NCBI RefSeq assembly: GCF_012027645.1
Contig: NZ_SNUU01000001.1
Span: forward strand, 1,054,001-1,118,000
Length of the DNA: 64,000 bases
DNA from: Thermococcus sp. 18S1
GTDB lineage: Archaea; Methanobacteriota_B; Thermococci; Thermococcales; Thermococcaceae
Reading direction: 5' to 3'
A program made the translations under genes and the position numbers. Of this stretch, positions 7,803 to 55,397 are shown one piece after another (the first letter of the stretch is position 1; every line of letters begins with the position of its first letter). The notes under the pieces were generated by a model. The model worked only from the letters and a program-made list of their open reading frames with translations. It ran no database searches and was not told where the DNA came from.

Positions 7803-8945
7803 ATGGTAAGCTCGGGCTTTAGGGCAATGCTTCTCAAACTCGGCGTTCCCGAGGACAGACTGGCGGTTCTTGAGGGCAAAGGTGGAGTTGTGGAGGGAGA
7901 ATTTGAAGGCATAAGATACGTCCGCTTCCGGGATTCCGCCAAGGGCTTCCGGCGCGGGACGGTTGTCTTTGACAACGGGGACGTTGTTCTTGGATTCCCC
8001 CACATAAAGCGCGTCGTCCAGCTGGAGAGCGGTATAAAGAGGGTCTTCAAGAACAAACCCTTCTACGTTGAGGAGAAGGTGGACGGCTACAACGTCCGCG
8101 TCGTGAAGGTGAGGGACAGGGTCCTGGCCCTCACGAGGGGCGGCTTCATATGTCCTTTCACGACGGAGAGGATACTGGACTTCATAAACGAGGAGTTCTT
8201 CAGGGACTACCCCAACCTAGTTCTGGCGGGAGAGATGGCCGGGCCGGAGAGTCCTTATATCGTCGAAGGGCCGCCCTACGTGAAGGAGGACATAGAGTTC
8301 TTCCTGTTTGATATCCAGGAGAAGGGGACGGGAAGGAGCCTCTCCGTGGAGGAAAGGCTCAGGCTGGCCGAGGAGTACGGGATTCGCCACGTTGACACCT
8401 TTGGCCTTTACGATCGCTCGAAGATCAAGGAGCTGCATGAGCTAATCGAAAGGCTCAGCCGGGAGAGGAGAGAGGGCATCGTCATGAAGACTCCGGATAT
8501 GAAGAGAATCGCGAAATACGTAACGCCGTACGCCAACATCAACGACATCCGGATAGGCTCCCACATATTCTTTGACCTGCCGCACGGCTACTTCATGGGG
8601 AGGATTAAACGCCTCGCGTTCTACCTGGCCGAAAAGCACGTCCGGGGCGAGGAGTTCGACGAATACGCGAAAGCCCTTGGAAAGGCCATCCTTCGGCCGT
8701 TCGTTGAGAGCATCCACGAAGTTGCCAACGGCGGCGAGGTCGAGGAGGTCTTCACGGTCAGGGTGAAGAGCATAAGCACGGCCCACAGGATGGTGACCCA
8801 CTTCGAGAGACTCGGCGTGAAGATTCACATCGAGGACATAGAGGACCTGGGCAACGGCTACTGGAGGATAACCTTCAAGAGGGTCTATCCGGACGCGACG
8901 CGCGAGATGAGGGAGCTGTGGAACGGCAGGGCTTTCGTGGATTGA
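7803..8945 (+). CDS. ATP-dependent RNA ligase, Rnl3 family
   Basis: A 380-residue nucleotidyltransferase-fold ligase. Motif I EEKVDGYNVR holds the adenylated lysine, motif III is seen around EFFLFDIQE, motif IV as EGIVMK and motif V as IAKYV. The C-terminal domain is the dimerising module typical of the archaeal Rnl3 group, whose Pyrococcus and Methanothermobacter members seal and circularise RNA. In the cell it may make circular box C/D RNAs or repair breaks; that is inference. It stands alone, with GGTGGGATA before the ATG and the repeat region directly downstream. Confidence 0.85.
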   Translation: MVSSGFRAMLLKLGVPEDRLAVLEGKGGVVEGEFEGIRYVRFRDSAKGFRRGTVVFDNGDVVLGFPHIKRVVQLESGIKRVFKNKPFYVEEKVDGYNVRVVKVRDRVLALTRGGFICPFTTERILDFINEEFFRDYPNLVLAGEMAGPESPYIVEGPPYVKEDIEFFLFDIQEKGTGRSLSVEERLRLAEEYGIRHVDTFGLYDRSKIKELHELIERLSRERREGIVMKTPDMKRIAKYVTPYANINDIRIGSHIFFDLPHGYFMGRIKRLAFYLAEKHVRGEEFDEYAKALGKAILRPFVESIHEVANGGEVEEVFTVRVKSISTAHRMVTHFERLGVKIHIEDIEDLGNGYWRITFKRVYPDATREMRELWNGRAFVD

Positions 8946-8946
8946 G

Positions 8947-9249
8947 CAAGCTTTGCTCCCGCAAAGCTTGACCAAAAGGAGTTGACTGCAGAAAAAGCAT
9001 GGAATGATTTCGTGCACTCTTTAATTGCAGCTTTATTTGTAGGTTTGGCTCTTTGATAAAGCTCTTCAACAGTTTCGACCTTATTTTTGGCGTCCTTTGG
9101 ACGCCTTCTGGAGGGTGAAACCCTATGAAACTCGGGATTTTTAATGCAAACCGTCATCCAGAACTGCCCGTTTTAAAGTGCACGACCTCAAAGTTCCCCC
9201 TTTAAACGGTTTGAATCTTTTGATGAAACTTTGCCCAGCAAAGTTTCGG
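8947..9249. repeat. Composite structured repeat, copy 1 (tandem cluster)
   Basis: Left hairpin CAAGCTTTGC (8947-8956) pairs with GCAAAGCTTG (8961-8970), followed by ACCAAAA. The central hairpin is GGCGTCC...GGACGCC near 9089-9105, with GTTTC/GAAAC outside it. The right hairpin is AAACTTTGC/GCAAAGTTT near 9224-9247, preceded by TTTGATG. The same three-part order recurs at four other places in the window. Confidence 0.65.
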
Positions 9250-9275
9250 GGGCGTGGGGGCGTTAGCCCCCCAGC

Positions 9276-9545
9276 AAGCTTTGCTTGCGCAAAGCTTGAC
9301 CAAAATGCTTTAACTGTCAAAAGGGCAAAAGGAAAGTTGCATGCGTTATCAAACAGTCAATGGATTCAGGGTTTACACTCATGATGGCGTGTGGAGGAAA
9401 GTTTTTAGTTTTAAACAGCGCCCGAAGGGCGCTAACGGGAGGAAAACACGTTCAAAACTGGCAGGTTTGGAAGTAAACCCTCCTGAGAACAAGCCATTCA
9501 AGAGGCATGCCGGCTTTGATGAAACTTTGCGAAGGCAAAGTTTCT
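9276..9545. repeat. Composite structured repeat, copy 2 (tandem cluster)
   Basis: The left hairpin CAAGCTTTGC (9276-9285) with GCAAAGCTTG (9290-9299) is the same stem as copy 1 with a different loop, again followed by ACCAAAA. The central hairpin is AGCGCCC GAA GGGCGCT near 9416-9432 inside GTTTT/AAAAC, with AAGTAAACCC about 40 nt later. The right hairpin is TTTGATGAAACTTTGC GAAG GCAAAGTTTC, ending near 9545. Confidence 0.65.
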
Positions 9546-9589
9546 TAACGTGGGGCGAAGCCCCACTCCGGGGGTTTGAGAGTACAGGA

Positions 9590-9893
9590 AACTTTTCTTA
9601 CGAAAAGTTTCATCAAAGTTTGTGATTCTTTTTTAAAATACATCGGGGAACGTTTGCGCTCTCAGGTATGCATTCCTAAATGGGAATTCACTTCCAAAGC
9701 TCCTGAAATGAAGGTTTAACTCCAAAAGCGCTCCGTTGGAGCGCAAGAAAAAGTAAACCCCACTCAAACATGGCCCAAAGTGAAGAATTCCAACAGCCAA
9801 AGTTACAACTCAAGAAGGCAAACTCTCATAGAAGGAACCGTTCTACGGAAGAATCACGAACCTTGATCAAACTTCGCGAAGGCGAAGTTTGCT
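9590..9893. repeat. Composite structured repeat, copy 3 (tandem cluster)
   Basis: The left hairpin GAAACTTTTC TTAC GAAAAGTTTC is followed by ATCAAAGTTTGTG. The centre is GGTTTAACTCCAAAA, then GCGCTCC GTT GGAGCGC (9728-9744), then AAGTAAACCC (9751-9760). The right hairpin CTTGATCAAACTTCGC GAAG GCGAAGTTTG ends near 9893. The centre and right end match copy 4 at 45.7-45.97 kb closely. Confidence 0.7.
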
Positions 9894-9941
9894 TTGCAAA
9901 AAATTTGTATACTTCCCAACCCAAAAAAGGGTGGAACGGTT

Positions 9942-10014: not shown

Positions 10015-10785
10015 ATGGCCTGGCACATCTTCATTCCAGATTCGCTCCTTGAAGAGACCGATGACCCCAAAATCAGGACGTACAAGGTTGGGCAGATAGC
10101 CAGGGCCGCTGCAATCTTCGGCGTTGAGCACGTGTGGGTTTACAGGGCTGGCGGCAGGGACGGAAGGTTCATCAAAACGATCCTTGAGTACGCGGAAACG
10201 CCCCAGTACCTCAGGAAGAGGCTGTTCCCCCTCATGCCGGAGCTCAGGTACGTCGGCGTTATCCCTCCGCTGAGGACTCCCCACCACAAGCTTAAGGGGA
10301 AACCGAGGGTCGGAGAGATCCGCGAGGGCTTCGCCTTTCGGAAAGGAAGGAGAACCTACGCGGACATCGGCCTCGACGACCTCGCCGCGGTGGAGGGGGA
10401 CGTTGAGGGGCGTGCAACTTTCAGAATCGTCTCAGCAAGGCCTCTCAGGGTGATACCAGCGAAGCCGGAGGAATACTGGGGGTACAGGGTGCATCTAACT
10501 AGGAAGTCACTGGCAAAAACACTTAAAAAGGCCAGGCTGGATTTGGCGATTGCCACCTCCAGGAAGGGGCGTGATGTTCGAGAGGTGAAGCTTCCCCCGC
10601 TCGAGGGGGAGGTCGGATTCGTGTTTGGCTCACCGAGGAAAGGCGTGATGGAGCTCCTCGGCGAGGAGGAATATGACTTTGATCTAATCCTCAACACCAT
10701 CCCAAATCAGCGGACGGCCACCGTCCGCACCGAGGAGGCCGTGTTGGCCACACTCGCTGTGTTTAATCTCATAAGGAGGGATTGA
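10015..10785 (+). CDS. SPOUT-type RNA methyltransferase (C9orf114/SPOUT1 family)
   Basis: From ATG 10015 a 256-residue protein beginning [14 protein letters not shown]. The N-terminal part ([17 protein letters not shown]) and the C-terminal [18 protein letters not shown] with [19 protein letters not shown] form the knotted SPOUT SAM-binding core. The frame is open back to 9889, but the promoter at 9950 and the sequence character argue for 10015. Archaeal members precede L3 in many genomes; the exact RNA target is not established. It ends one base before the L3 start, so it is translationally coupled as the first gene of the operon. Confidence 0.8.
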
Positions 10786-36426: not shown

Positions 36427-36581
36427 TCATGTGTTTTTTCTTCAGGTTTCTCTTGAACTCTTCTTTTGGGCATTGTCTGGTTTCTTAGGGCATATATCCT
36501 GAATGAATTCCTGCACAGTATGTGGACAAAAGCTTGGAAAATCTGGGCTTAATAACAGATGCCTGTCAGAAGATTGTGTGA
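36427..36581. other. Intergenic spacer, nothing recognised
   Basis: AT-rich spacer between FUN14 and the 3' end of minus-strand tRNA-Arg. No gene with a ribosome binding site and no stable hairpin were seen. Confidence 0.4.
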
Positions 36582-36659
36582 TGGCGGACCGGCGGGGATT
36601 CGAACCCCGGACCTGCGGCTTAGGAGGCCGCCGCCCTATCCTAGCTAGGCTACCGGTCC
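36582..36659 (-). tRNA. tRNA-Arg (CCT anticodon)
   Basis: On the minus strand the acceptor GGACCGG pairs with CCGGTCC, with G discriminator and encoded CCA. The anticodon arm GCGGC CTCCTAA GCCGC gives CCT, reading AGG. The T arm is CGGGGTTCGAATCCCCG. Confidence 0.95.
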
Positions 36660-36729
36660 ACTGCCCGCTATTCCCTCCAAGGGAAGGGTATTTAAAGTTT
36701 ACGGTCTACTCGGATGGGGGTGGGATACT

Positions 36730-37179
36730 GTGGACGAACTCGACCTGAGGATACTCTCGCTGCTTCAGGAAAACGCCCGCCTGTCGTACCGTGAGATAGC
36801 GCGGGAGCTCAAAGTGGCCGTTGGAACCGTGTACAACCGCATCAAAAAGATGGAAGAAGAAGGTGTAATCAGGGGGTTTGCCCCGATCCTTGACTACGAG
36901 AAGCTCGGCTTTGGACTGACCGCGGTCATAGGCGTCAAGGCCAAGGGGAGACGTATCTTGGATATAGAGCGCGAGATAGCCAAAAACGAGAGGGTAATGC
37001 TGGTCTACGACATAACCGGTGAGTTCGATATAGTCCTGGTAGCGAAGTTCAAGGATAGGGCAGACATGAACCGCTTCGTTAAGTGGTTGCTCTCCCTTGA
37101 GGGAGTGGAAAAAACGAACACGAGTGTTGCGATGCAGGTGGTTAAAGAGGACACAAGGTTAAAGCTAACGGAGGACTAG
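36730..37179 (+). CDS. Lrp/AsnC-family transcriptional regulator
   Basis: A 149-residue protein: the N-terminal helix-turn-helix (LDLRILSLLQENARLSYREI, then VAVGTVYNRIKKMEEEGVIR) is followed by a RAM ligand-binding domain (ERVMLVYDITGEFDIVLVAK). It probably forms dimers or octamers that bind DNA in response to amino acids. The GTG start follows GGGGTGGGATACT. It converges on the next minus-strand gene with a 15-bp overlap. Confidence 0.9.
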   Translation: MDELDLRILSLLQENARLSYREIARELKVAVGTVYNRIKKMEEEGVIRGFAPILDYEKLGFGLTAVIGVKAKGRRILDIEREIAKNERVMLVYDITGEFDIVLVAKFKDRADMNRFVKWLLSLEGVEKTNTSVAMQVVKEDTRLKLTED

Positions 37180-37491
37180 AACCTCATCCAGGAACCGCTT
37201 CGCAAAATCGTCGAAGCTCTCAACTGGAAGGATGACTTCCTTTCCGTTGACTTTACCCTCAAAAATCAGGTTTCTTGCCGTTATCTCCAGTATCTTTTTG
37301 AAGTCGGGGTTTTCCGCGATGGTGTCCCTGAGAACCCTCGTGAACTCTGCCTCCTCCGCGTGCCGCACCACGCCCTCTATGACCACCTTTTTTCCGCACT
37401 CCTCCTCGGTGCATATGAATTTAAAAGGGAGGCCGGGTTCGACCTCCACCGGAATCGTCAGGCCGTCGGCGTTGTATATGAACACCTTCAT
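37165..37491 (-). CDS. Hypothetical protein downstream of gfcR
   Basis: Not recognised. 108 residues from ATG 37491 with GGAGTGATTCCC before it. It begins MKVFIYNADGLTIPVEVEPG and holds one CTEEECGKK pair. No membrane helix is visible. It directly follows the regulator at 37497-38213 and is probably co-transcribed with it; the 3' end overlaps the convergent Lrp gene by 15 bp. Confidence 0.6.
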   Translation of the reverse strand: MKVFIYNADGLTIPVEVEPGLPFKFICTEEECGKKVVIEGVVRHAEEAEFTRVLRDTIAENPDFKKILEITARNLIFEGKVNGKEVILPVESFDDFAKRFLDEVLVLR

Positions 37492-37496
37492 GGGAA

Positions 37497-38213
37497 TCAC
37501 TCCAGCCTTATGAGGCTCTCCACTGGGATGCTGTACTCCTCACGCAGCCGCTCTATAACGTCCCCGACGCTTATGAGGAAGAACATTCCGACGGGCTTCG
37601 CACCGGCCTGCCGGCACATCTCCAGGAGCGCCCTCTGGGTCTCGCCGCTCCTTATGACGTCGTCAACTATGAGGACGTTTTCGCCCTTCTTGAGAGCCCA
37701 CTGCGGGAGGTACAGCGTCGTGACGCTTCCCGAGGCGCTCGGAACATAGCTGACCTCGTAGAACTTCTCAACGCCGACTTCCTTCTTCTTCTTAGCGTAG
37801 ACAACATCGACGTTCAGCTCCCTCGCCACGTGAACGCCGAGGGCTATTCCGTCCGTCGCGGCCGTGAGGACCCTGTCGACGTTCTTGTCCATGTACCTGC
37901 CTGCCACGTCCTCCGCGATGAGGCTCATCAGGGCAGTATCGCTGAGAACGGGCATGTTGTCAAAGAACCCATACTCGTCGAATTTTATCCTCTTCCTGAC
38001 CTCCTCCTCTATGTTGATGTACGGGAGGAGCAGGTTGAGGAGCTCCTTTGTTCTCTCGGCGCTCGGCAGGACCTTTCCCCTCACGTACCTGTTCAGCACG
38101 GTGATGGGGAGGCCCGTTATCTTGGAGAGCTCCTCGTAGGTGTAGGTCTTCTTGAGCAGTCTGAGCACTCTGACCAGTCTCAGCTTTTCCTGCACGGACT
38201 TCAGCTGACTCAC
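37497..38213 (-). CDS. gfcR: PRTase-like transcriptional regulator (GfcR family)
   Basis: A 238-residue protein combining an N-terminal HTH (YTYEELSKITGLPITVLNRY) with a phosphoribosyltransferase domain. VLIVDDVIRSGETQRALLEM is the PRPP-binding loop, and ATDGIALGVHVAREL precedes it. This fusion is the archaeal GfcR type, which in haloarchaea activates sugar-catabolism genes; some members are labelled orotate PRTase-like. Its target here is not visible. The GTG start has GAGGTGAGAGC upstream. Confidence 0.82.
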   Translation of the reverse strand: MSQLKSVQEKLRLVRVLRLLKKTYTYEELSKITGLPITVLNRYVRGKVLPSAERTKELLNLLLPYINIEEEVRKRIKFDEYGFFDNMPVLSDTALMSLIAEDVAGRYMDKNVDRVLTAATDGIALGVHVARELNVDVVYAKKKKEVGVEKFYEVSYVPSASGSVTTLYLPQWALKKGENVLIVDDVIRSGETQRALLEMCRQAGAKPVGMFFLISVGDVIERLREEYSIPVESLIRLE

Positions 38214-38267
38214 GCTCTCACCTCCGGTGCCCCTGAATTAACAAGAAAATGTATAAATAGGTTTCGG

Positions 38268-38768
38268 TCACACGGGGCCCTTCACAACTTTTCCACGGTA
38301 CTCCTCTATGACGTCGCCGTACTCCCTGAGGAGGAACTCCTTCGTCACGGGCTCCCCCTCGGGGTGGTCTATGCCCGGGCAGAAGGGGTCCTTTTTGACG
38401 TAGATTTCCATCTTTTTTCCGTGCTTCACAAAGACGAATGGATAGAGCCTGCACGCGAGGGGCCGGTGGTTGTAAATTTTGCAGCGCATGGTCTCGGGAT
38501 CAAGGAAAACGCAGCCCCCGTCGAAGGGACGCTTTTTGATGGCGTAGCTGAGGAACTTGTCCCCGCGGTAGAACATTTTATCGTAGTCCACGAATTCCCA
38601 GGCACTGTAACCCAGTTCCTCTATCCTGGCTATATCTTCATCCCGGATGGGTATCTCCAGCTCGTAGCAGCATTTTCCGCAGTTTTCAAGGCACTTAAAT
38701 TTAAAGGTGGGGTCGTGCTTGACCTCCAGGGTCTCGAGGTCGATGGTGGCAACCCACCGCCTCTCCAA
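38268..38768 (-). CDS. YkgJ-family cysteine-cluster protein
   Basis: A 166-residue protein with the CLENCGKCCYELEIPI cluster and later cysteines (GGCVFLD, MRCKIYNHRPLACRLYP, DPFCPG). This is the putative zinc/iron-chelating YkgJ pattern; Fe-S binding is possible but unproven. TTG 38768 is taken as start because GGGTGAGGGG lies just before it. It is adjacent to a lone RAM domain and SRP54 on the same strand. Confidence 0.82.
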   Translation of the reverse strand: MERRWVATIDLETLEVKHDPTFKFKCLENCGKCCYELEIPIRDEDIARIEELGYSAWEFVDYDKMFYRGDKFLSYAIKKRPFDGGCVFLDPETMRCKIYNHRPLACRLYPFVFVKHGKKMEIYVKKDPFCPGIDHPEGEPVTKEFLLREYGDVIEEYRGKVVKGPV

Positions 38769-38772
38769 CCCC

Positions 38773-39012
38773 TCACCCCCTGTAGGAGCTCGCTATCAGC
38801 GTCTCCGTCATTTCGATGTTCTTTATCCTCCGTAGGACCTCATCGTGGAACCTGTCCAGCTCCTCTATGCTGCTGACCCCCACGCGGAGGATCAGGTCGT
38901 ACTCACCGTAGACCCTGTATATCTCGTTTATCTTCTCGTTGCCCCGGAGGGTCTCGTAGACCTTCTCCTCGGTTCCGGGTTTAACAACAACCAGGACAAA
39001 CGCTTCCATCAT
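38773..39012 (-). CDS. Stand-alone RAM (Lrp ligand-binding) domain
   Basis: A 79-residue protein: [20 protein letters not shown] and [20 protein letters not shown] form the alpha/beta RAM fold of Lrp/AsnC proteins, but no DNA-binding helix-turn-helix is present. Such lone RAM proteins may sense amino acids or modulate full-length Lrp proteins. The ATG overlaps the SRP54 stop, suggesting co-translation. Confidence 0.82.
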
Positions 39013-40355
39013 AGGCCGAACCCCCCGAAGTTAAACCTCTTGGCCATCTTGGCCAGCTTCCTCTTGTCCATGCTCTTGAACATCTTCTTCATCTGATTGT
39101 ACTGGTTGAGAAGCTCCCTTACCTCGGCGGTGCTGGTTCCCGAGCCGCGGGCTATGCGTTTGATCCTCGAGTAGTTGATTATCTCCGGGTGCTCGAGCTC
39201 CTCCTCGGTCATGGAGTCCATGATTACCCTGTACCTCCGGAGCTTCTCCTCGCCCACCCTCACGGCGTCATCCGGCAGGGAGTAGCCCAGTCCCGGGATC
39301 ATCTGAAGAACCTGCTTCAGCGGCCCCATCTTCTGCATCGCTTCGAGCTGGGCGTACATGTCCTTCAGGTTGAACTTGCCCTTGAGGAACTTCTCGAGGT
39401 CTTCCTCGCTGACGGCCTGCTGTTTCTGGAGCTCCTCGAGCTTCTCCAGAAGTCCCTCGATGTCTCCCATTCCCAGGAGCCGTGAAACAAAGCGCTTCGG
39501 ATCGAAGGCCTCGAGGTCGTCTATCCTCTCGCCAACACCGATGAACTTTATCGGGGCGCCGGTTGCGGCGACGGCCGAGAGTGCACCACCACCCTTGGCC
39601 GAACCGTCGAGCTTGGTGACTATTATCGAGCCTATCGGCGTTGCCTCCTTGAACGCCAGGGCCTGGTTATACGCCTGCTGGCCTATGGTGCCGTCTATGA
39701 CCAGTATGACCTCGTGGGGCTTTATGGCCTGGCTTATCTGCTTCATCTCCTCTATAAGGCCGGACTCCTCCTTGTGCCTTCCTGCTGAGTCCACGATGAT
39801 AACATCCACGTCCTTCCCCTTGAAGTACTCGACGCCCTCGGAGGCGAGCTTGACCGCGTCCTTCTCCTCGGGGTCCCCGGAGACCTCTATCCCGTACGGT
39901 TCAAGGAGCTGCTTGAGCTGGTAGTAGGCTCCCGGACGCCAGGTGTCCGAGCAGACGACGCCCACCTTGTAGCCCCTCTTCTGGAGGTGCCTAGCGAGTT
40001 TCGCCACGCTGGTTGTTTTACCCGAACCCTGAATACCGACGGTGAGCAGGACTGTGGGTTTCTCTTTTATCTCGAGGGGTTTGGCCTCCTTTCCGAGAAA
40101 TTTGGTCAGCTCCTCGTAGACTATCTGGATTATGTGCTCCTTCTTCGAAGCCCCTGCCGGGGGCTCCTCCTCAAGTGCCCTCTTCTCTATTGTTTTGGTC
40201 AGCTGAAGAACGAGCCTTACGTTAACGTCCGCCTGGATGAGTGCCCTCTGGATATCTCGCACTACCTCCTTTATCGTCGCCTCGTCCACGGTTTTCGAGC
40301 GGGCGAGCTTTTTCAGGGCGCTGTTCAGTGCCTTCCCAAGCTTCTCTAGGGCCAT
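39009..40355 (-). CDS. srp54: Signal recognition particle protein SRP54
   Basis: A 448-residue GTPase. An N domain precedes the G domain with G1 [22 protein letters not shown] for G3 and [11 protein letters not shown] for G4. A methionine-rich M domain follows ([30 protein letters not shown]) that binds 7S RNA and signal sequences. It delivers ribosomes to SecY. A TTTATAAAC box A lies about 35 bp before the ATG. Confidence 0.96.
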
Positions 40356-40635
40356 TTTCTCTCACCGTAGTGATGGCGTCTCCAAAGTTTATAAACAGTT
40401 GGGTCGGCTCCCGGAAAAATTCGATGTTCTAATGTGCGCTTTCTTCTTAATCGGAAATGTCAGAGCAGATTTAATCGAACATATTTGTACATCCAACTAC
40501 AAAGACGGACGACGTTGCTTTTTTGAAGGAATAAAGAACTCCAAGAGTCACTTATGGAAATTTGGGGGCTGACAAAGCTTTTAAACCTCTGAGGGGCCAG
40601 ATATTATTGAAAACGGGGAAACGGAGGTGATACGG
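40356..40635. other. 280-bp AT-rich intergenic region
   Basis: Holds the SRP54 promoter on the minus strand and, toward the right, a CTTTTAAAC box A that drives the small gene at 40636. An open frame at 40432-40572 (46 codons) has no ribosome binding site and is not called. Confidence 0.45.
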
Positions 40636-40746
40636 ATGATGTGGATGGCCCACCTGTACGGATACATGCTCGAGAGGGAGATGGAGAGGCGGAAGCGCAA
40701 GTCCATCCCCGAGGAGCTCGCGTACGTTGAAACCCTTGGAGCTTGA
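40636..40746 (+). CDS. Putative 36-residue microprotein
   Basis: ATG 40636 is preceded by an excellent ribosome binding site (GGAGGTGAT at 40623) and a CTTTTAAAC promoter about 50 bp upstream. The product MMWMAHLYGYMLEREMERRK continues with a basic/acidic helix and ends LAYVETLGA. It looks like one amphipathic helix. Function unknown; the strong expression signals, not homology, are the reason to call it. Confidence 0.5.
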   Translation: MMWMAHLYGYMLEREMERRKRKSIPEELAYVETLGA

Positions 40747-40801
40747 TGGTTGAATCACCTCGCTTTAATAAGGTGCGGTTCTATTTTTACCCGGTGGTGT
40801 T

Positions 40802-41665
40802 ATGAGGATACACTACGAGTGCATCGCTTGTGCCGTTAACCAGGCTCAAAAGATAGCCGAGATGAGTACCGAGGACTTTGAAAAGCGCAGGAGGGCTATG
40901 CTTTTCGTGGCCAGGAAGCTTGGCGAGCTGTTTAGCGAGGATTCAATTCCCGCGGTGAGCGGGGGTATACTCTTCCTTGAACTGTACCGTTTCCTTGGGG
41001 ACGATGACCCGTTCAACGGCTACAAGGAGACCTCCACGAGGCTGGCCCGCAAGGTGGCCCGGGACATTGGGGTTCCGAAGGATTTCAAAGCCGCCCTCAA
41101 GCTGGCGATAGCGGGTAACGTCATAGACTTCGCCGTTGGCTACGACCCCTCAAAGATGGAGGAGGACATCTTCGGGGTGACCGGGGAGGAGCTTAGGGTA
41201 GACCACAGCGATGAGCTTCTCAGGGCGCTGGAGAACGCCGGGGTGCTGCTTTACCTCACCGATAACTGCGGGGAGGTGTACTTTGACAGGCTCCTTCTTG
41301 AGTTCATACGCAGGAGATTTCCCGGCCTGAGGATATACGTGGCGGCGAAGGACGGTCCGATAATCAATGACGCCACGGTCGCGGACCTGCTGGAGGCGGG
41401 GTTCAACGAGTTTGCTGAAGTTATATCCACGGGCTCCAGACTTCCGGGCACTCCACTTGAACACTCCTCCGGAGAGTTCAGGAGAATCTTCAACGCCGCC
41501 GACGTCATAATCGCCAAGGGACAGGCCAACTTTGAGACTCTGAGCGACCTGGGGGACAGCAGGGTGTTCTTCCTCCTCAAGGCCAAGTGTCCTCCAATCG
41601 CCCGCGAGCTTGGTGTCGAGAGGGGTTCACTGCTCTGTGTGAGGGGCGGAAAAATAGACGATTGA
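40802..41665 (+). CDS. DUF89/ARMT1-type metal-dependent phosphatase
   Basis: A 287-residue protein of DUF89 subfamily I. The N-terminal YECIACAVNQ has the CxxC of archaeal members. YLTDNCGEVYFDRLLLEF carries the Asp-Asn metal site, and AAKDGPIINDAT and IIAKGQANFETLSD complete the core. Family members are damage-control phosphatases acting on sugar or cofactor phosphates, or protein-carboxyl methyltransferase-like; the substrate is unknown. The ATG follows CCGGTGGTGTT. Confidence 0.85.
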   Translation: MRIHYECIACAVNQAQKIAEMSTEDFEKRRRAMLFVARKLGELFSEDSIPAVSGGILFLELYRFLGDDDPFNGYKETSTRLARKVARDIGVPKDFKAALKLAIAGNVIDFAVGYDPSKMEEDIFGVTGEELRVDHSDELLRALENAGVLLYLTDNCGEVYFDRLLLEFIRRRFPGLRIYVAAKDGPIINDATVADLLEAGFNEFAEVISTGSRLPGTPLEHSSGEFRRIFNAADVIIAKGQANFETLSDLGDSRVFFLLKAKCPPIARELGVERGSLLCVRGGKIDD

Positions 41666-41739
41666 CGATATTATCTTTGACGAATGTCTATTAGAAACCT
41701 TTTTATATTTTCAAGTGGTATATACTTATGGTGATATCT

Positions 41740-41949
41740 GTGACAACGGTAATTCGGAAAGATGCAGAAAGGTTTTTGAGGGAGTTAAGGGCTCATTACG
41801 GCGATGCCTGGAGGATGCCGCGCAGTAACTACCTGTCCAAGCCAGATTTCGTTGTGATCGACCCCAAGAGCGGCAAAAAGACAAAAGTAAGCTTCGTTTC
41901 CCTTGACGATGGTGAAGTCGTTGGTGTCGTTTACGACGACCTTGGCTGA
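41740..41949 (+). CDS. Small hypothetical protein
   Basis: 69 residues (MTTVIRKDAERFLRELRAHY...). GTG 41740 has GGTGATATCT upstream; ATG 41728 is about 25 bp after a TTTTATATTTT box A and could serve as a leaderless start. No family recognised. The central SKPDFVVIDPKSGKKTKVSF is well-formed alpha/beta sequence. Confidence 0.5.
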   Translation: MTTVIRKDAERFLRELRAHYGDAWRMPRSNYLSKPDFVVIDPKSGKKTKVSFVSLDDGEVVGVVYDDLG

Positions 41950-42039
41950 ATTTTCGCTTTTTGACTAATTGTGCCTATTCTGTTTTGGCCGTTGGAAACC
42001 ATTAAATACTTCCATATCGTAAATTTTCCGGTGGAAATA

Positions 42040-43341
42040 ATGGCCGCCGATGTTTACCGCGAGGCCCTTCGGCTGGCCTCTGATATACGGGACAAGTACC
42101 TGCGAGCAGTCACCTACGCTAAAATTGGCTATTATATGCACAGAGCCAAGAATCCTGAGTACGGGACTGCGTTTAAGTACGCCTTCAACGCGGTCGCCTC
42201 CATCGAGAACCCAGTTCTGGCAGTCAGGGCTCTCATGGAGATAGGCACCTACCTTCAGCTGGCAGGAAAGAAGACGTCCAGAAAAGTCTTTGGACAGGCC
42301 CACGATGCAGTGCTCGACTTCCCCCAACCTCTCCGCGACGACCTCCTCAGTGAGCTGGTAGTGAGGCTTCTGGAGCTTGACCTAGTTGATGATGCCCTTT
42401 TCTACGTTGCCGACATTGAGGATACCGTAAAGCGCAACGACCTCCTTCTGAAGATACTCCGTGCGTACCTGAATCGCGGTAACATGCGCAGGGCCGCGAA
42501 GATAATTGAGCAGATTGATGAGGAGCCCTGGCACTCAATAGCGGCAATCGAAGCAGTGAAGGAGCACCTTAAACGGGAGGAGTTCGGCAGTGCAATACGC
42601 GCCCTGTCGGAACTCAGGAGTGACTATTGGCTTGGCGAGGCCATGAGGGAGGTTGCTGTATATCTGAAAACGTCCGATGTCCCCAAAGCGACATATGAGA
42701 AGTTTGTGGATATCGCGCTATCGCTCTCCGGGGAGACGGGTTCGGATATCCTCAACTCACTTCTAATCGGCCTTGGGAACCAGGGTGAGCTTGAGTTCGT
42801 CATGGGAATACTGAAACGGCTGCCTCCAGAGCAGAGAATCACTGTACTTGAGGGAATCGTCAAGGTATCCGCCGACAGGGAGGAGATACTCTCCAGGCTG
42901 CTGGAACTCCTGAAGGGGGAGGAGTTTGAACATATAGCCGGTTTTGTGGTGGATCAGCTGCTCTCCAGGCCCATCAGCGAGAGGTATTCAGGTCTTGTTA
43001 AGTCAATAGGTGAGAGAACCAGAGATGATGCTGTCCTCGTTAAAGTCGCCACGTACCTCTCCAAGCTCAGAGACTTTGACGGTGCGTGGAAATTTGCCTC
43101 CCGCGTTCGCGGCCACTACCTCCGTTCGCTGGCATTTGGCAGCATAGCTGTGGCGAAGCTCAATGCCGGGGATATAGACGGGGCCATCGATGCCGCCCTT
43201 GAGGTGAAGGACGCCAAGTGGGGTTCCTGGCTCCTCAGCGAGATACTGACGAAGATACTGGAACTCCAGACCGAGGGAGAGGTTAGGGAGGACATCGAAG
43301 AGCGGGCGGAATACCAGAGGGGACTCTGGGAAAAGGGCTAA
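42040..43341 (+). CDS. Alpha-helical repeat protein (TPR/HEAT-like)
   Basis: 433 residues made almost wholly of paired helices of 30-40 residues: ALRLASDIRDKYLRAVTYAK, ALMEIGTYLQLAGKKTSRKV, ALFYVADIEDTVKRNDLLLK and similar blocks up to AIDAALEVKDAKWGSWLLSE. No enzyme motif or signal peptide. Such solenoids act as protein-protein scaffolds; the partner is unknown. ATG 42040 follows CCGGTGGAAATA; a TAAATACTT box lies upstream. Confidence 0.6.
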   Translation: MAADVYREALRLASDIRDKYLRAVTYAKIGYYMHRAKNPEYGTAFKYAFNAVASIENPVLAVRALMEIGTYLQLAGKKTSRKVFGQAHDAVLDFPQPLRDDLLSELVVRLLELDLVDDALFYVADIEDTVKRNDLLLKILRAYLNRGNMRRAAKIIEQIDEEPWHSIAAIEAVKEHLKREEFGSAIRALSELRSDYWLGEAMREVAVYLKTSDVPKATYEKFVDIALSLSGETGSDILNSLLIGLGNQGELEFVMGILKRLPPEQRITVLEGIVKVSADREEILSRLLELLKGEEFEHIAGFVVDQLLSRPISERYSGLVKSIGERTRDDAVLVKVATYLSKLRDFDGAWKFASRVRGHYLRSLAFGSIAVAKLNAGDIDGAIDAALEVKDAKWGSWLLSEILTKILELQTEGEVREDIEERAEYQRGLWEKG

Positions 43342-43381
43342 CGTTTTAAGCCCTCCTCCGTTTCTTCCCCTAGGTGATACC

Positions 43382-44185
43382 ATGCCGAGGATAGCAATTA
43401 TTGGAGGTTCCGGAGTCTACGACCCGAAGCTGCTTCAGAACATAAGGGAGGAGTTCGTAAGCACTCCCTATGGAAAGGTCAGGGTGAAGATAGGCGAGTA
43501 CGACGGGGAGGAAATAGCCTTCCTGGCGAGGCACGGCGAGGGGCACAGCGTTCCGCCGCACAAGATAAACTACCGCGCCAACATCTGGGCGCTCCACGAG
43601 CTCGGTGTCGAGAGGATTCTCTCAACTTCCGCCGTGGGCTCGCTCAACGAGGCCATGAAGCCGGGCGACTTCGTCGTTCTCGACCAGCTTATTGACTTCA
43701 CCAAGACGAGGCACTACACATTCTACGACGGCGACGACAGCCCGCACGACAGGAAGTTCGTTGCCCATGTGGACTTCACAGACCCCTACTGCCCCGAGCT
43801 CAGGAAGGCCCTTATTACAGCTGCCAAGGAGCTTGGCTTTGACTACCACCCAACGGGCACCTACGCCTGCATGGAGGGCCCGAGATTTGAGACGAGGGCC
43901 GAGATAAGGGCTCTCAAGATACTCGGCGCCGATGTCGTTGGAATGACCCAGTGCCCCGAGGCAGCTCTAGCCAGGGAGCTGGAGATGTGCTACGCTAGCG
44001 TGGCCATAGTCACCAACTTCGCCGCGGGGATAAGCACTCAGAAGCTCACCCACACCGAGGTCGTCGAGCTGATGGCCCAGAAGAGCGAGGAGATCAAGTA
44101 CCTTCTCATGAAGTCCATCAAGTACATCCCGAAGGAGCGCCACTGCGCCTGCAAGGACGCCCTGAAGGGTGCGACCGGAGAGTGA
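43382..44185 (+). CDS. mtnP: S-methyl-5'-thioadenosine phosphorylase
   Basis: A 267-residue member of the PNP/MTAP family: IAIIGGSGVYDPKLLQ, FLARHGEGHSVPPHKINYRA and TYACMEGPRFETRAEIRALK. It cleaves MTA from polyamine synthesis to adenine and methylthioribose-1-phosphate; a related purine phosphorylase activity is possible. The ATG follows AGGTGATACC. Confidence 0.93.
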   Translation: MPRIAIIGGSGVYDPKLLQNIREEFVSTPYGKVRVKIGEYDGEEIAFLARHGEGHSVPPHKINYRANIWALHELGVERILSTSAVGSLNEAMKPGDFVVLDQLIDFTKTRHYTFYDGDDSPHDRKFVAHVDFTDPYCPELRKALITAAKELGFDYHPTGTYACMEGPRFETRAEIRALKILGADVVGMTQCPEAALARELEMCYASVAIVTNFAAGISTQKLTHTEVVELMAQKSEEIKYLLMKSIKYIPKERHCACKDALKGATGE

Positions 44186-44288
44186 CCCCTCTTCTCTCAT
44201 TTTGTTACCGATACTGCTTACATTCAGGCGAGTTTGATAACGAAACTGTTTAAAACCTTTGAGTGGAGATATTAGTGGTGATTTCAAA

Positions 44289-45629
44289 ATGATGAAGTAC
44301 GATGTTGTAGTTGTCGGCGCGAGCGCCGGCGGCATAACCACGGCCCTCGCCGCGAGGCGGTTCTATCCCGACAAGAGCATCCTTGTGATCAAAAAGGAGG
44401 ACGTTGGGATAATCTCGTGCGGCATTCCGTACGTCTTTGGAACGCTCAAGAGCATCGATGAAGACCTCATCCCCCTCGACATGTTCTTCAAGCCGACAGG
44501 CATAGACGTCCTTGTGGACGAGGTGACCCACATAGACCCCAAGGCCAAGCTCGTGAGGACTAGAGGCGGAGAGGAGATTCGGTGGGAAAAGCTCGTCATA
44601 GCCACCGGCTCCCGGCCGGTTCTTCCGCAGGTTCCTGGATTTGACCTCGATGGCGTGCACACCATACCCAAGGACTACGAATACCTAAAGGAGCTTAAGG
44701 AGAGAGTGAAGGAAGCAGAAAACGTCGTTATAATCGGCGGTGGGTTCATAGCCCTTGAGGTGGGGGACGAGATACGAAAACTCGGAAAGAACGTCACCCT
44801 GGTCGTCAGGAGCAGGCTCCTGAGGAACTCATTTGACCCGGAGTTCAGCGAGATGGTGGAGAATAGGCTCCGCGAGGCTGGTGTTGATATTGTTTACGGC
44901 CATGTGGAAAGGCTCCTCGGTGGGGGAAGGGTCGAGGGAGTCAAGCTGGTTGATGGCACCGAGCTTCCGGCCGACCTCGTGATATTCTCCATTGGCTACA
45001 GGCCGAACGTTGAGCTTGCCGTTAAGGCGGGTCTCAAGGTTACGCGCTACGGCATCTGGACCGACGAGTACATGAGAACCTCCCATCCGGACATCTTTGC
45101 GGTTGGAGACTGCGTGGAACACAGGGACTTCTTCACGGGGAAGCCATACACCCTCATGCTGGCTTCAACGGCAACCTTTGAGGCCAGAATAGCCGGAGCG
45201 AATCTCTTCAGGCTTCAGATAGTGAGGGAGAACAGGAGAACGATAGGCGTCTACGCCACCCATGTTGCCGGCCTGACCCTCGCGGCGGCAGGCCTCACTG
45301 AGGAAGCAGCGAGAAAGGAGGGCTTTGAGGTCATAGTGGGCTACGGAAAGGCCCCGGACAAGCATCCCGCGGTTTTCCCGGGAACTTCCATGATAACTGC
45401 GAAGCTGATATTCTCCCGCGACAGGGGAGCTATACTCGGCGCCCAGATAGCCGGCGGGGAGAGTGTAGGAGAAATGATAAACGTCCTCGCGCTGGCGATA
45501 CAGAAGCGCCTTACCGCGAGCGAGCTCTACACGCTGCAGATAGCGACCCACCCGCTCCTCACGGCGTCCCCTGTGGCCTATCCGATACTTCAGGCGGCCG
45601 AGGATGCCCTAGCGAAGCTGCGGACATAA
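44289..45629 (+). CDS. CoA-disulfide reductase / NAD(P)H oxidase
   Basis: A 446-residue flavoprotein: the FAD-binding VVVGASAGGITTALAARR, the redox cysteine in IISCGIPYVFG, and the NAD-binding VVIIGGGFIALEVGDEIRKL. FAVGDCVEHRDFF and a C-terminal dimerisation domain follow. Single-cysteine members of this type in Pyrococcus reduce CoA disulfide and also act as NAD(P)H oxidase, handling sulfur and oxygen stress. ATG 44289 follows GTGGTGATTTCAAA. Confidence 0.92.
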   Translation: MMKYDVVVVGASAGGITTALAARRFYPDKSILVIKKEDVGIISCGIPYVFGTLKSIDEDLIPLDMFFKPTGIDVLVDEVTHIDPKAKLVRTRGGEEIRWEKLVIATGSRPVLPQVPGFDLDGVHTIPKDYEYLKELKERVKEAENVVIIGGGFIALEVGDEIRKLGKNVTLVVRSRLLRNSFDPEFSEMVENRLREAGVDIVYGHVERLLGGGRVEGVKLVDGTELPADLVIFSIGYRPNVELAVKAGLKVTRYGIWTDEYMRTSHPDIFAVGDCVEHRDFFTGKPYTLMLASTATFEARIAGANLFRLQIVRENRRTIGVYATHVAGLTLAAAGLTEEAARKEGFEVIVGYGKAPDKHPAVFPGTSMITAKLIFSRDRGAILGAQIAGGESVGEMINVLALAIQKRLTASELYTLQIATHPLLTASPVAYPILQAAEDALAKLRT

Positions 45630-45967
45630 CTTTTCCTTCCTTTTAGGTTGAGACGTTCTCGTAAAAGTCATCTTTTTGGGAAAAGCTTCAATAAAAGTTT
45701 GTAGCTCTTCTCCCCGGTTGCATTTTTATAAACGGGTTTCTCAACTCAAAGCCGAGGTTTTGGGTGAGAACCAGTTTGAAATCCTGTGAATAGGGTTTAA
45801 CTCCAAAAGACGCCCACGGGGCGTCAAAAGAAAGCAAACCCATTGTGAGATTGCATTTTTGGGTTGTTCTCCGTGTTAAACGCTCCGATAATGAGAAACC
45901 CATTGAAAATTGACACCTCAAGAAGGAGCTACAGACCTTGATCAAACTTCGCGAAGGCGAAGTTTGT
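45630..45967. other. Gene-free 338-bp stretch filled by a composite repeat
   Basis: Between the CoA-disulfide reductase gene and attL. It holds copy 4 of the composite structured repeat and no gene. The repeat ends directly against the attachment site of the integrated element. Confidence 0.7.
45681..45967. repeat. Composite structured repeat, copy 4
   Basis: The left arm is degenerate (GAAAAGCTTCAATAAAAGTTTG). The centre GGGTTTAACTCCAAAA is followed by GACGCCC ACG GGGCGTC (45809-45825) and AAAAGAAAGCAAACCC. CTCAAGAAGG leads to the right hairpin CTTGATCAAACTTCGC GAAG GCGAAGTTTG, which ends at the attL edge. Centre and right arm match copy 3. Confidence 0.65.
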
Positions 45968-46018
45968 TAGAATGGTGCGGTGGCCGGGATTTGAACCCGG
46001 GCCAGCGGCGTGGCAGGC
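45968..46018. repeat. attL: 51-bp copy of the 3' part of tRNA-Gly
   Basis: Identical over 51 bp to 56644-56694 (TAGAATGGTGCGGTGGCC ... GCGTGGCAGGC). The matching sequence in the intact tRNA-Gly gene runs from the anticodon loop to a few bases past CCA. It lies inside the integrase reading frame (peptide EWCGGRDLNPGQRRGR). Confidence 0.92.
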
Positions 46019-46857
46019 ATCGGAAATCGGAGTTTTTTGGAAACGAAGGTGGGATATGGGAGTATGCAGGAGTTAAGGGCGAGTTCGGGGAGTGGTTACA
46101 TAAGAGGAAAGGCCTCGCGGACAGGACGAGGCGGGAATATGTACGTCGGCTGGAGAAGTTCTTCAATAAGTATAAAATACGAACACTCCACGACCTCGAA
46201 GCCGCCCTCGAAGCCGAGGGGAACCCCCGGAACCTCGCCAAAGCCCTGAGGAACTACATCGCCTTTCTGTTGGAGAAGGGCGTCATCGACGAGGCCTACT
46301 ACAACGAACTCAAGAAGCGAATAGTTATCCGCTCGACGGGGACTGACTTATACGTGCCCGACGACGCCGAGGTTCGGGGCTGGTATGAAAAACGCGGCGA
46401 GTGGGAGGAGCCCTACCAGTTGGTCTTCGAACTCATACTATTCAGCGGCATCAGGGTATCCGAGGCGTTGAAGGTTCTCAGCGAGTTCGAGCCGTCCCGG
46501 CTCCACATCAACGACCAGTATGCTTATTATGATTTAGGGTGGTCGAGAGGTTCGAAGAAGTCGTGGGTGGTCTTTATGCCCCCAGAGCTCGCCAACCGTC
46601 TCAAGCGCCTCACGGTCACGGACGATGGGGTGTACAGCTACTTCTCCAAGAGGAAGATCCATCTAAAATATCTCCGCAAGTGGTTCATCAATAAAGCATT
46701 GGAAGCCGGGGCACCCGTGAACGTCGTGAAGTTCCTCGCAGGCCATAGCCTATCCGGGGATATAACCTCATTACATTATATAGATATGCTGGGTCAGGCG
46801 CGACGCTACTATCCTGACATACTATATAATATACGTACTGCCACAAAAAGTTTATGA
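45970..46857 (+). pseudogene. SSV-type integrase, C-terminal part (split by integration)
   Basis: 296 codons from the att core to the stop. After EWCGGRDLNPGQRRGR the protein continues HRKSEFFGNEGG and a SAM-like core-binding domain (KGLADRTRREYVRRLEKFFN). The tyrosine-recombinase catalytic domain has Arg in FSGIRVSEAL, KxxR in LKYLRKWF, His in AGHSLSGD and the nucleophile Tyr in SLHYIDM. Joined to the right-end fragment it makes a 390-residue integrase. Alone it lacks the N-terminal part and a proper start, so it is probably inactive while integrated. It is a mechanism-driven split, not decay. Confidence 0.88.
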
Positions 46858-46889
46858 ACTCAAAAAACCTACCACGTTAAGTTGAAAGG

Positions 46890-47002
46890 TTTATAAACTC
46901 CCAACGCCACATTTTTTATGGTGGGGACAGGGGCACGTAGTCGGCGACCCTGCTGGGACGGGACGTAACAATAGGCCATAACTCACCGCCCCATATTTTC
47001 AG
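46890..47002 (+). ncRNA. RNA-like leader, copy 1 (paralogue of 47820-47944)
   Basis: TTTATAAAC (46890-46898) is a box A. About 25 bp on comes GC-rich GGTGGGGACAGGGGCACGTA GTC..., ending CTCACCGCCCCATATTTTC. GGTGGG can pair with CTCACC (one G-U), closing a ~70-nt domain that ends before a T run. A second copy with the same promoter, the same GTAGTCxGxGAC core and a compensating CCCACC lies 0.93 kb downstream. The conserved shape argues for a small RNA; its class (antisense, H/ACA-like, other) is not determined. Confidence 0.5.
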
Positions 47003-47039
47003 TGTTACACGGCCCCCTGTAACCACCAGTTTAAGCAAC

Positions 47040-47068
47040 ATCTGATATATAATAAGTTGGTGATTGTG
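47040..47068 (+). promoter_or_regulatory. Second conserved promoter before the element gene at 47069
   Basis: GATATATAATAAG sits about 24 bp before the ATG and is also present before the gene at 48019. In both cases it follows the RNA-like block and a shared CTGTAACC...CAGTTTAA stretch, so each gene seems to have its own promoter downstream of the RNA. Confidence 0.45.
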
Positions 47069-47746
47069 ATGGCAGGTGTAAAGGCGAACACGACACAGAA
47101 GGTTGAAGTGAAGGACACGTACACGTCGTACGAGGAGATGCTGGACGACGTGGTCGCGTACGTTCTACAGAACGTGGAGGGTGCGGACGAGTACACGTAT
47201 CTTGCAAGCGCTGAGTACAGTATACACTCAGGAAGCACGCCGTATGACCAGCTGTTCGCGGAGATTGACGCCGGCATCGCATCTTCACTATACAACGACG
47301 TCGAGGACTTTGGATACATTGGGTTCATCGAGGGCGACTTCGTTTCCCTGCTCGAGGAGTACCTGTCCAGCTTCGTCGACGCTATGTGTTTCTATGACAA
47401 CTACGACTATCACGTCGAGCATCTAGACGACGTGTTCGACGGCGTCTACGTTGATTGCTCGACTTACGAGCACTACCTCGACCATCGCGTGGAAGAGTAC
47501 GCAGACATCGCTGGGATCTCACCCGACGAACTCACCGAGGAAGAACTCAGCGACCTGTCCTGGGACTTCAAGGTCGAAGCCCTCACGGTTAACCTATGTT
47601 TCAGTATGCCAGCACGCCTTGTCTATAAGGAGTATACTGAAAACACAGATTTGTGCGGTTGCGTGAGTATAACGTTCTACAAGCAGAACCCGGTCGCCGT
47701 CCTGAAAAAGCTCGTCGAGGAGATAAAGAACAGGCGTGGCGAGTGA
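47069..47746 (+). CDS. Hypothetical acidic protein of the integrated element
   Basis: Not recognised. 225 residues from ATG 47069 (GGTGAT 4 nt upstream). Very acidic and rich in Tyr and Asp: KDTYTSYEEMLDDVVAYVLQ, DVEDFGYIGFIEGDFVSLLE, DNYDYHVEHLDDVFDGVYVD. It ends with a basic helix (LKKLVEEIKNRRGE). Several cysteines lie near the C terminus. The acidity suggests a DNA mimic or adaptor, but that is speculation. Confidence 0.6.
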   Translation: MAGVKANTTQKVEVKDTYTSYEEMLDDVVAYVLQNVEGADEYTYLASAEYSIHSGSTPYDQLFAEIDAGIASSLYNDVEDFGYIGFIEGDFVSLLEEYLSSFVDAMCFYDNYDYHVEHLDDVFDGVYVDCSTYEHYLDHRVEEYADIAGISPDELTEEELSDLSWDFKVEALTVNLCFSMPARLVYKEYTENTDLCGCVSITFYKQNPVAVLKKLVEEIKNRRGE

Positions 47747-47819
47747 AACAAGACATTCTCTCTTCCCTTCTGGCTCCTTCTTCAACGCGTATTTTTTCTC
47801 ATACTTTATGTTGAAAGAC

Positions 47820-47944
47820 TTATAAACTTCCAACGCCATAAGTGATATGGTGGGGGGACAGGCGGGCTCGCGGGGTAAAGTAGTCAGTGACTCGGCTGGA
47901 ATATGGTGTAACGCCCTTGTGTAACCCACCGTTCCAAATTTTTC
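47820..47944 (+). ncRNA. RNA-like leader, copy 2 (paralogue of 46890-47002)
   Basis: CTTATAAAC (47820-47828) is the box A. GGTGGGGGGACAGGCGGGC starts about 25 bp later; GTAGTCAGTGACTCGGCTGG is the core shared with copy 1. GTAACCCACC near 47930 pairs perfectly with GGTGGG, and a T run (AAATTTTTC) follows. The region then continues with the shared CTGTAACCCTCAGTTTAA and GATATATAATAAG into the next gene. Confidence 0.5.
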
Positions 47945-48018
47945 GACCCCACGGCCTCTGCCTGTAACCCTCAGTTTAAACCTTAGTCGATATATAATAA
48001 GTGGTGAGCGTGATAGTG

Positions 48019-48342
48019 ATGGAGCTGGTAAAGCTGAAAACGAAGCTCTACAACAAGGACAAGCGCCGTTCCGGCCTCGTGTTCATCGCTAAGGGCAAGC
48101 TCAACGAAGACGAGCTCGCCCTGTTCAGGAAGCTCGCACAGAAGAAGAAGGTCGTCGGCGGACTGGAGTTCTCAGAGAGCAAGGTCAGCCTGTTCACCAC
48201 CCGCGTCCACGAGCGCAGGAACGGCTTTGAGGTCATAGTGCCGCGCGCCGTGGCCGACCTTCTGGAGCCCAGCAACATTGACGTCATCGTACAGCTGAGC
48301 AGAACGGGGATAACCATAAAGCCCTGTGGAGGTGAGCACTGA
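48019..48342 (+). CDS. Hypothetical small protein upstream of the MCM-like gene
   Basis: Not recognised. 107 residues from ATG 48019 (GTG 48016 and GTG 48010 are alternatives; GGTGA lies at 48003). A compact alpha/beta protein: MELVKLKTKLYNKDKRRSGL, FEVIVPRAVADLLEPSNIDV. The second half, VIVPRAVADLLEPSNIDVIV followed by LSRTGITIKPC, resembles an AbrB-like or swapped-hairpin DNA-binding strand pattern. It ends 1 nt before the helicase start (TGATG) and is surely co-transcribed with it; it may be a replication accessory or repressor. Confidence 0.6.
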   Translation: MELVKLKTKLYNKDKRRSGLVFIAKGKLNEDELALFRKLAQKKKVVGGLEFSESKVSLFTTRVHERRNGFEVIVPRAVADLLEPSNIDVIVQLSRTGITIKPCGGEH

Positions 48343-50903: not shown

Positions 50904-51377
50904 CCCCCTTTCTACCCCCTCTTTTCCCAGGCCCCATCGGCCCCGGCCTTGAACCCACGGTTCTGGTGTTACACGTTGTTGCGGGAAAGCTCAAGTTTTT
51001 GGGTAGTCCTGCGGGTGTCCCGTTCAATTGCGACCAAAAATTTCCCAAAATATTGTAACATAGAGTTGGCCCCAAAAGCCCCAAGGGCCCCAGGGCATAT
51101 AGAGTCAAGTCATCAACCCTGACCCCCTGCCCAGAATCTTGATGGCAACACCTCGATGGGGTTGGGGCCAATGGGGCCTCTGGGGCTGGGCCAGCACAGG
51201 GAAGCTACTCGTCCCTTGAAAAGTCAGGAACTGCTGTCGCCCTACTCGTGTCTGTAGGGGGTGTGAGGACAAAATTTGCAAGTGGCCGTACAAGTTGGGG
51301 TGACTACGCATCGGCCTCTCCCGCTCTTTTAAACCGGTTCCCCCTCCCACTGCCGGACAACAAGGGGGTGACGGGAT
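50904..51377. other. 474-bp non-coding region after the helicase gene
   Basis: No convincing gene. It is rich in GGCC and CCCC/GGGG runs (TTGGCCCCAAAAGCCCC around 51066; GGTTGGGGCCAATGGGG around 51158) that can pair with each other. An AT block (CCAAAAATTTCCCAAAATAT) lies near 51033. Its right end has box A CTTTTAAACC and GGGGGTGA for the next gene. Position beside the helicase makes it a candidate origin, but no Orc-box was recognised. Confidence 0.45.
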
Positions 51378-51707
51378 ATGGGTGAAAGCGGCTACACAGG
51401 TTACAGGGTTGATGCAACGTTTAGGTTCGGGGAGATAAGGAGGGAGAACCTGCAGAGGTTCGTGTTCCAGCTGGCTGAGGTTTTTAGTAAGGAGCGGAAC
51501 GTCGGGCGTGACCTTGCAAGTGAGCTCGAGAAGTGTAACGTAGACGTCCTACACAACGTTGAGGTGACCCTGTTCCGCGGAGAAAGTGGTGCTATGGCCA
51601 GTATTACTGGTGATGAGGTTGTAATACGCCTCATCTACGGGTACTCTACTCCTGGACGCTGGAAGCTGGACGACATCTTGAACACCTGCACCACGTCGAT
51701 TGAGTGA
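51378..51707 (+). CDS. Hypothetical protein of the element
   Basis: Not recognised. 109 residues starting MGESGYTGYRVDATFRFGEI, with mixed alpha/beta character (NVEVTLFRGESGAMASITGD). The ATG has GGGGGTGACGGGAT before it and a good box A 45 bp upstream. It is convergent with the putative restriction enzyme gene. Confidence 0.6.
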   Translation: MGESGYTGYRVDATFRFGEIRRENLQRFVFQLAEVFSKERNVGRDLASELEKCNVDVLHNVEVTLFRGESGAMASITGDEVVIRLIYGYSTPGRWKLDDILNTCTTSIE

Positions 51708-51819
51708 TCTTTTCTTCTCCACAATGTTTATGGCATTGTACTCGTTCTCTTCCAAGGTGGTCAACAAGTCTATTCCAATATATGGTGTTAAAAAAGGAGA
51801 TCCCGAACACGGCAGAAAC

Positions 51820-52587: not shown

Positions 52588-52612
52588 AGTCGCCACCTAT
52601 ATGAAGACCACC

Positions 52613-52671: not shown

Positions 52672-52682
52672 TGGTGGGGGCG

Positions 52683-55364: not shown

Positions 55365-55397
55365 CTTTACACCGGTATAATGATATCATAAAAACAC

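Follow-up and report, generated by a model that had tools for sequence, protein, structure and literature searches.

Hairpin-ended repeat cassettes behind gene 3' ends in Thermococcaceae, with a probable crossover point in the terminal hairpin

In the genome of Thermococcus sp. 18S1 (G000, 1.99 Mb), of which we analyzed a 64,000-nt stretch (here called the window), the gap at positions 8946-9900 raises the question of what fills it and how it came to be there. On its left lies a Pab1020-type RNA ligase gene (7803-8945; PF18330, TIGR01209) and on its right the promoter of a SPOUT-type methyltransferase gene (10015-10785; PF02598), which precedes L3. The original prediction had described three units of ca. 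270 to 300 bp with outer hairpins and a GC-rich central hairpin, and all three are present where it had placed them. The array starts 1 nt past the stop codon of the RNA ligase gene and ends at a TTTGCAAAAA(A/T)TT block upstream of the SPOUT-methyltransferase/L3 promoter. We call the units A, the repeat found between them B, and a further type of end C, all three names being coined in this analysis. The elements of the window are the following:

8947-9247, no strand assigned: cassette A1, 301 bp; left hairpin 8947-8970 followed by ACCAAAA, apex 9089-9105, TTTTGAT followed by the right hairpin 9225-9247
9248-9274, no strand assigned: piece of spacer repeat B in the A1/A2 interval; GC hairpin GGGGGCGTTAGCCCCC, a motif that recurs beside arrays elsewhere
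9275-9544, no strand assigned: cassette A2, 270 bp; hairpins 9275-9298 and 9521-9544, apex 9417-9433
9545-9587, no strand assigned: piece of spacer repeat B in the A2/A3 interval; GTGGGGCGAAGCCCCACTCCGGGGGTTTGAGAGTACAG
9588-9891, no strand assigned: cassette A3, 304 bp; hairpins 9588-9611 and 9868-9891, apex 9728-9744, inverted arms ATCAAAGTTTGTGATTCTT / AAGAATCACGAACCTTGAT
9892-9907, plus strand: conserved block TTTGCAAAAAATTT, where the repeat arrays of relatives have their right edge and which array-free relatives also keep
45676-45966, no strand assigned: further family copy; right end hairpin 45943-45966 adjoins a truncated tRNA gene; degraded left end, with an approximate left limit
56914-57225, no strand assigned: further family copy; left hairpin 56914-56936 follows directly on the 3' side of the tRNA gene at 56833-56907; degraded right end, with an approximate limit

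Each of the cassettes A1 to A3 has an outer hairpin at either end, with a stem of 8 to 11 bp and a loop of mostly 3 to 4 nt, inward-facing inner motifs (left, AYCAAA; right, TTTGRT), arms that are imperfectly inverted, and a 7-bp apical hairpin that is rich in GC and has a 3-nt loop. The proposed inversion of left and right arms, in the manner of terminal inverted repeats, was borne out, the ends of A3 being inverted repeats of each other with 45-nt arms that are 78% complementary. The description as a tandem cluster needs correction: the three units are not copies of one tandem repeat and belong to different subfamilies with different bodies. Folded as single-stranded RNA, most of the twelve copies gave a hairpin, one long interrupted hairpin, and a second hairpin.

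The cluster is not a product of chance, since the 955-bp gap sequence matched 22 of the 24 sampled congeners as well as its own genome, where the best ends reached an E value of 3e-8. Its comparison with plasmid and phage collections gave no match, and viral contigs contained no exact match to three typed patterns. A covariance model of the ends (31 positions, built from 40 ends, full-length ends counted at E values up to 0.001) identified 44 full-length ends in G000 and matched 76 of the 94 Thermococcaceae genomes, namely, 58 of 61 in the genus and 3/3, 0/9, 7/13, 7/7, and 1/1 in five other genera; G003, G019, G078, and the nine g9 genomes had no ends. Instead of a few copies without stem conservation, the genome-wide search thus returned the dispersed copies that the original prediction had led us to expect. 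From the loci first gathered, we extracted 37 elements with both ends, mostly 301 to 307 or 264 to 277 bp long. Several subfamilies can be told apart by their arms, the plan being identical in all; A2 was 92% identical to a copy beside tRNA-Lys in the genome G005 and 87% identical to one at the sR44/sR36 site of G015. The fourth base of the end stem tracked the inner motif: among 94 distinct ends, 57 combined A with ATC and 28 combined G or C with ACC, with nine exceptions. This pairing may reflect descent rather than function. Judged on the open-licence literature, in which we found no description of them, the A units are a previously undescribed repeat family of Thermococcaceae.

Two other repeats share this environment. 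Repeat B is a second dispersed repeat with several GC-rich hairpins that often separates A cassettes and also stands by itself after genes and tRNAs (window 9248-9274 and 9545-9587; L064 1880-2020; L069 1387-1510). The C-type end, CAGCCCTTTC..GAAAGCGCTGGCGGAAA, was found at 3' sites also used by A (L066 1215-1240; after tRNA in L155, L161, L165, and L168) and probably belongs to a sister cassette family. We also noted a structured insert, GACGTTGGAG...ACGACAGCCCCGT, that interrupts an A-end hairpin (L153, about 1960-2035, and G000 near 1214.46 kb), with a similar insert in two genomes; at E values up to 0.5, there was no Rfam match to this insert in L153 or L064.

The position of the cassettes relative to genes was tight. 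Ten of the 44 tRNA genes of G000 had a family end 5 to 9 nt beyond the Rfam 3' boundary, i.e., 2 to 6 nt past CCA, always with its outer side towards the tRNA, against 0.01 expected under random placement, and none of the 44 had an end within 10 nt of its 5' side. Most tRNA genes of this genome carry no intact A end, and at the same 3' spot of other tRNA genes we found degraded A ends, the C type, or B. Two convergent small RNA genes tightly enclose the L052 array, with sR36 (RF01124, 71.7 bits) to its right and, to its left, a below-threshold match to an sR44/sR1-like box C/D RNA whose final base is also the hairpin's first. In all, 18 of 19 clusters faced at least one gene 3' end (ORFs were called by a simple script and some are doubtful). 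Gaps to genes facing the arrays by their 5' side measured 45 to 102 nt in 7 of 12 cases, the other five resting on doubtful ORF starts.

At a given site, the content of the spacer turned over while its borders stayed. In relatives, the right edge of the array at the SPOUT locus, of A or C type, abuts the same TTTGCAAAAA block, and the cassette differs. Between the window and locus L101, the neighboring gene is 90.6% identical and the cassettes are unrelated; between the window and L091, the gene is 76.8% identical and A3 96.7% over 307 bases, L091 being a short metagenome contig in which misassembly is possible, as it is for several other loci that are metagenome contigs. The TTTGCAAAAA(A/T)TTT block itself (window 9892-9910) is conserved across Thermococcus loci even without arrays and is a possible regulatory element.

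The complete genomes G000 and G013 proved collinear at the 12 sites placed (flank queries were built for 17 sites; both flanks were run for 11 sites and the right flank alone for L061). At eight sites with aligned flanks (left, 87 to 99%; right, 93 to 100%), their arrays averaged 53% identical columns (45 to 72%), versus 47% for nonorthologous and 45% for shuffled controls; the mean does not include L055 and L063, whose right flanks aligned over no more than 20 and 12 bases. Behind tRNA-Val(CAC), the 28 readable genomes (of 30 loci) carried an intact A in 13 cases, a degraded or interrupted A in 3, C in 8, B in 1, and nothing recognizable in 3. Between close relatives, arrays at the same site are almost unrelated, and units are absent in some relatives, the outcome anticipated if single units come and go at orthologous gaps, a comparison that the original prediction had proposed.

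Where the exchange breaks the DNA could be read at the sR44/sR36 spacer, for which 19 of 28 loci showed both flanks, the other nine being without a usable right flank. In G000, this spacer consists of cassette, B, and cassette. G072 agrees with it in the flanks, in B, and in the second cassette, but the place of the first cassette is taken by a single hairpin, CAACCTTTGC-CCGC-GCAAAGTTTC, in which the outer arms of that cassette's left and right hairpins are joined. The G071 spacer measures 33 bp and consists wholly of a single hairpin flanked by short ends, GAAACTTTGC-ACCA-GCAAAGTTTG; it is composed of the outer halves of a G075-like array, and its basal pair is mismatched, as expected for a hybrid. 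Both genomes show the joined outer halves of left and right sites that excision at a hairpin of att-like type would leave behind, and G007 has a spacer without any hairpin. In addition, a shared outer arm, GCGGATAGAAACTTTGC, is followed after the hairpin by an A body in G013, G001, and G018 or by B in G050 and G088. The hybrid hairpins, together with this shared arm and its differing insides, therefore point to a break in the hairpin core, and the hybrids are precise enough to show, by sequence alone, where an archaeal repeat crosses over. The guide motif lay on one side in 98 and on the other side in 88 of 220 hairpins, and on both sides in none (0/220). Simple circle insertion, which predicts a shared hairpin between two cassettes, was rejected on this last count.

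With such anatomy, dispersal, close placement at 3' ends, turnover at fixed sites, and hybrid solo hairpins, the units are probably MITE-like, noncoding, nonautonomous exchange cassettes with their crossover in the terminal hairpin. In Thermococcaceae, they occupy the spacers that follow immediately on the 3' ends of genes for tRNA, box C/D RNA, and proteins, and their gain, loss, and exchange would result from recombination that crosses over in the hairpin core CTTTGC-loop-GCAAAG. A spacer could then be free of hairpins, have a single one, or have a cassette between two of them, and the outer arms would remain with the chromosome as the inside changes. We infer that recombination acts on the hairpin itself, which would then be more than a short homology used passively, and that both insertion and loss would occur at this place. 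A low-specificity tyrosine recombinase, for example, the pTN3 integrase, is a candidate enzyme. Recombination with taken-up DNA may be another route; slippage on folded DNA, from which hybrid solo hairpins could also arise, would account for losses only. Weighing against exchange cassettes are the lack of a visible target duplication, of a Y1 transposase as partner, and of matches in plasmids, phages, and viral contigs, as well as the count of 0/220, since a circle entering an existing end should create hairpins with the motif on both sides.

Which part of this structure is maintained could be judged by comparing copies. The original prediction had taken the kept stems as a sign of selection for structure, which holds for the ends and the apex and hardly for the fold as a whole. 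The end stems covary, with 39 double-changed cells against a shuffle mean of 12.6 and none of 500 shuffles reaching 39 (the ends had been chosen for pairing, which biases the count towards structure). In an alignment of ten sequences, the end stems, an 18-bp arm beside the ends, a stem in the middle, and the apex are kept, and 13 of 61 pairs are double-changed. However, the long arms decay, and in close copies the fold was retained only somewhat better than under random substitution. Six of ten close-copy pairs reached the upper 5% of the null in at least one direction and four in none, with few compensatory changes, so that selection on the whole fold is at most weak. The inner folding energy of the 37 copies ranged from z = +0.3 to -9.3 (median, -3.4), with 29 below -2. 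We read these sequences as those of elements that were probably born as palindromes and then decayed, with constraint on the ends and the apex.

The main rival to exchange cassettes, which we consider rather unlikely, is that the units are host-maintained 3'-end elements, in which the hairpin and an inward pyrimidine tract would stop transcription in both directions, or act as an insulator, behind RNA genes; the sequences would diverge fast, since only the ends matter. Edges that abut mature 3' ends with almost no other spacer would suit such a role, as would the facing of clusters towards 3' ends and the wider gaps on 5' sides, the pyrimidine-rich positions 16 to 21 after the hairpin, and the G071 spacer, reduced to a hairpin. 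However, an intact end is missing at most tRNA genes of G000, the G007 spacer is hairpin-free, and cassettes that are nearly identical occur at nonorthologous sites. Of 159 ends, 31 had T runs of at least 5 in the inward and 17 in the outward reading, an asymmetry so weak that we rejected a terminator model built on it, and unoccupied tRNA genes, inspected by eye, had no strong T runs right after CCA. A family of structured noncoding RNA genes, to which the 29 of 37 copies with a strong inner fold might point, is very improbable, and we set it aside on two grounds: no Rfam match covers the units at gathering scores (in the window, only seven tRNAs matched), and pairs are little conserved in close copies. 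The strand is also inconsistent, and the accessible text of the primary transcriptome paper on T. kodakarensis (PMC4247193) does not contain the word "repeat."

The cassettes have the terminal inverted repeats, the length under 600 bp, and the absence of an internal transposase gene that define MITEs, and like them they are short, noncoding, dispersed, and intergenic. That they are classical MITEs of some DDE transposase, inserting behind genes and leaving solo hairpins as slippage remnants, is nonetheless improbable. The inverted ends, the near-constant length, and the mixture of near-perfect palindromes with decayed copies agree with it, but stems of varying length (8 to 11 bp) and outer arms conserved while the insides change are unusual for MITEs, as are ends that are themselves hairpins, a crossover within the end hairpin, and an exchange of content at fixed sites. 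Inspection of A1 to A3 and other elements by eye showed no target duplication (at the clean empty site, in G007, the spacer was too diverged), and no partner transposase was found in a search limited to PF01797, the Y1 transposase, which had no match in G000 and was present in 9 of 41 congeners. With REP, BIME, and REPIN elements (RAYT/Y1), the cassettes share paired inverted hairpins and a short motif beside each stem; they differ in having the motif inside the element, units of 270 to 300 bp, and a host, G000, without Y1 transposase. IS200/IS605 elements combine end hairpins with guides in direct orientation, whereas the cassette guides are inverted, and a RAYT/IS200 origin as the present partner was discarded on this and on the missing Y1 transposase. 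Integron attC cassettes likewise have a hairpin-type recombination site bounding exchangeable units, but the ends of the units described here are symmetric and no cargo genes were noticed in them.

Exchange cassettes may also bear on chromosome rearrangement. In the accessible part of one study, Thermococcus genomes are described as repeat-poor yet very fast at rearranging (PMC2718504). According to the accessible text of another (PMC5495485), the pTN3 integrase recombines homologous stretches of about 100 bp, the borders of species-level inversions lie in opposed tRNA gene pairs, and the tRNA-Leu/tRNA-Thr endpoint pair did not recombine in vitro. Breakpoints at opposed tRNA genes and low-specificity recombination over about 100 bp of homology resemble what we describe, but the substrates named in that text are paralogous genes and not a repeat family. 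When the arrays of G000 were compared with G005, eight of nine placeable arrays coincided with synteny breaks (L055, L057, L062, L064, L065, L066, and two other window copies; only L052 was intact), versus about 1 of 23 ordinary junctions (Fisher p 7e-6). Both counts were made by hand; the control junctions, about 22 intact and 1 broken at a tRNA 3' end, do not come from an annotation and lie in a stretch of the window that includes the unusually stable ribosomal genes.

In G005, repeats lie on the RNA-gene side of several breaks and are absent on most protein-gene sides, so that a causal role of the arrays in inversions is no more than a possibility, and breaks and cassettes may simply share tolerant spots. 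It is a tentative and, on balance, doubtful proposal that the terminal hairpin is a true attachment-like site of cassette exchange behind small-RNA genes and that the arrays, homologous in both orientations, are the missing substrate of the rapid Thermococcales inversions ending at opposed tRNA genes. Cassettes behind opposed tRNA genes would then be the real inversion substrate. Homologous cassettes of 270 to 300 bp just behind tRNA genes in any case provide a concrete substrate to test, and they may help explain the fast rearrangement of Thermococcus chromosomes.

Two larger segments of the window deserve mention. About 9 kb (36580-45644) is inverted in G005, with a tRNA 3' end and an A array as borders. 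An integrated mobile element (45910-56650), absent at the collinear place of G012, lies beside a truncated tRNA gene and carries an archaeal phage integrase (PF16795), an MCM-like helicase, a C-5 cytosine methylase, and an HhH-GPD gene; the integrase gene (45910-46857) adjoins an array and a tRNA.
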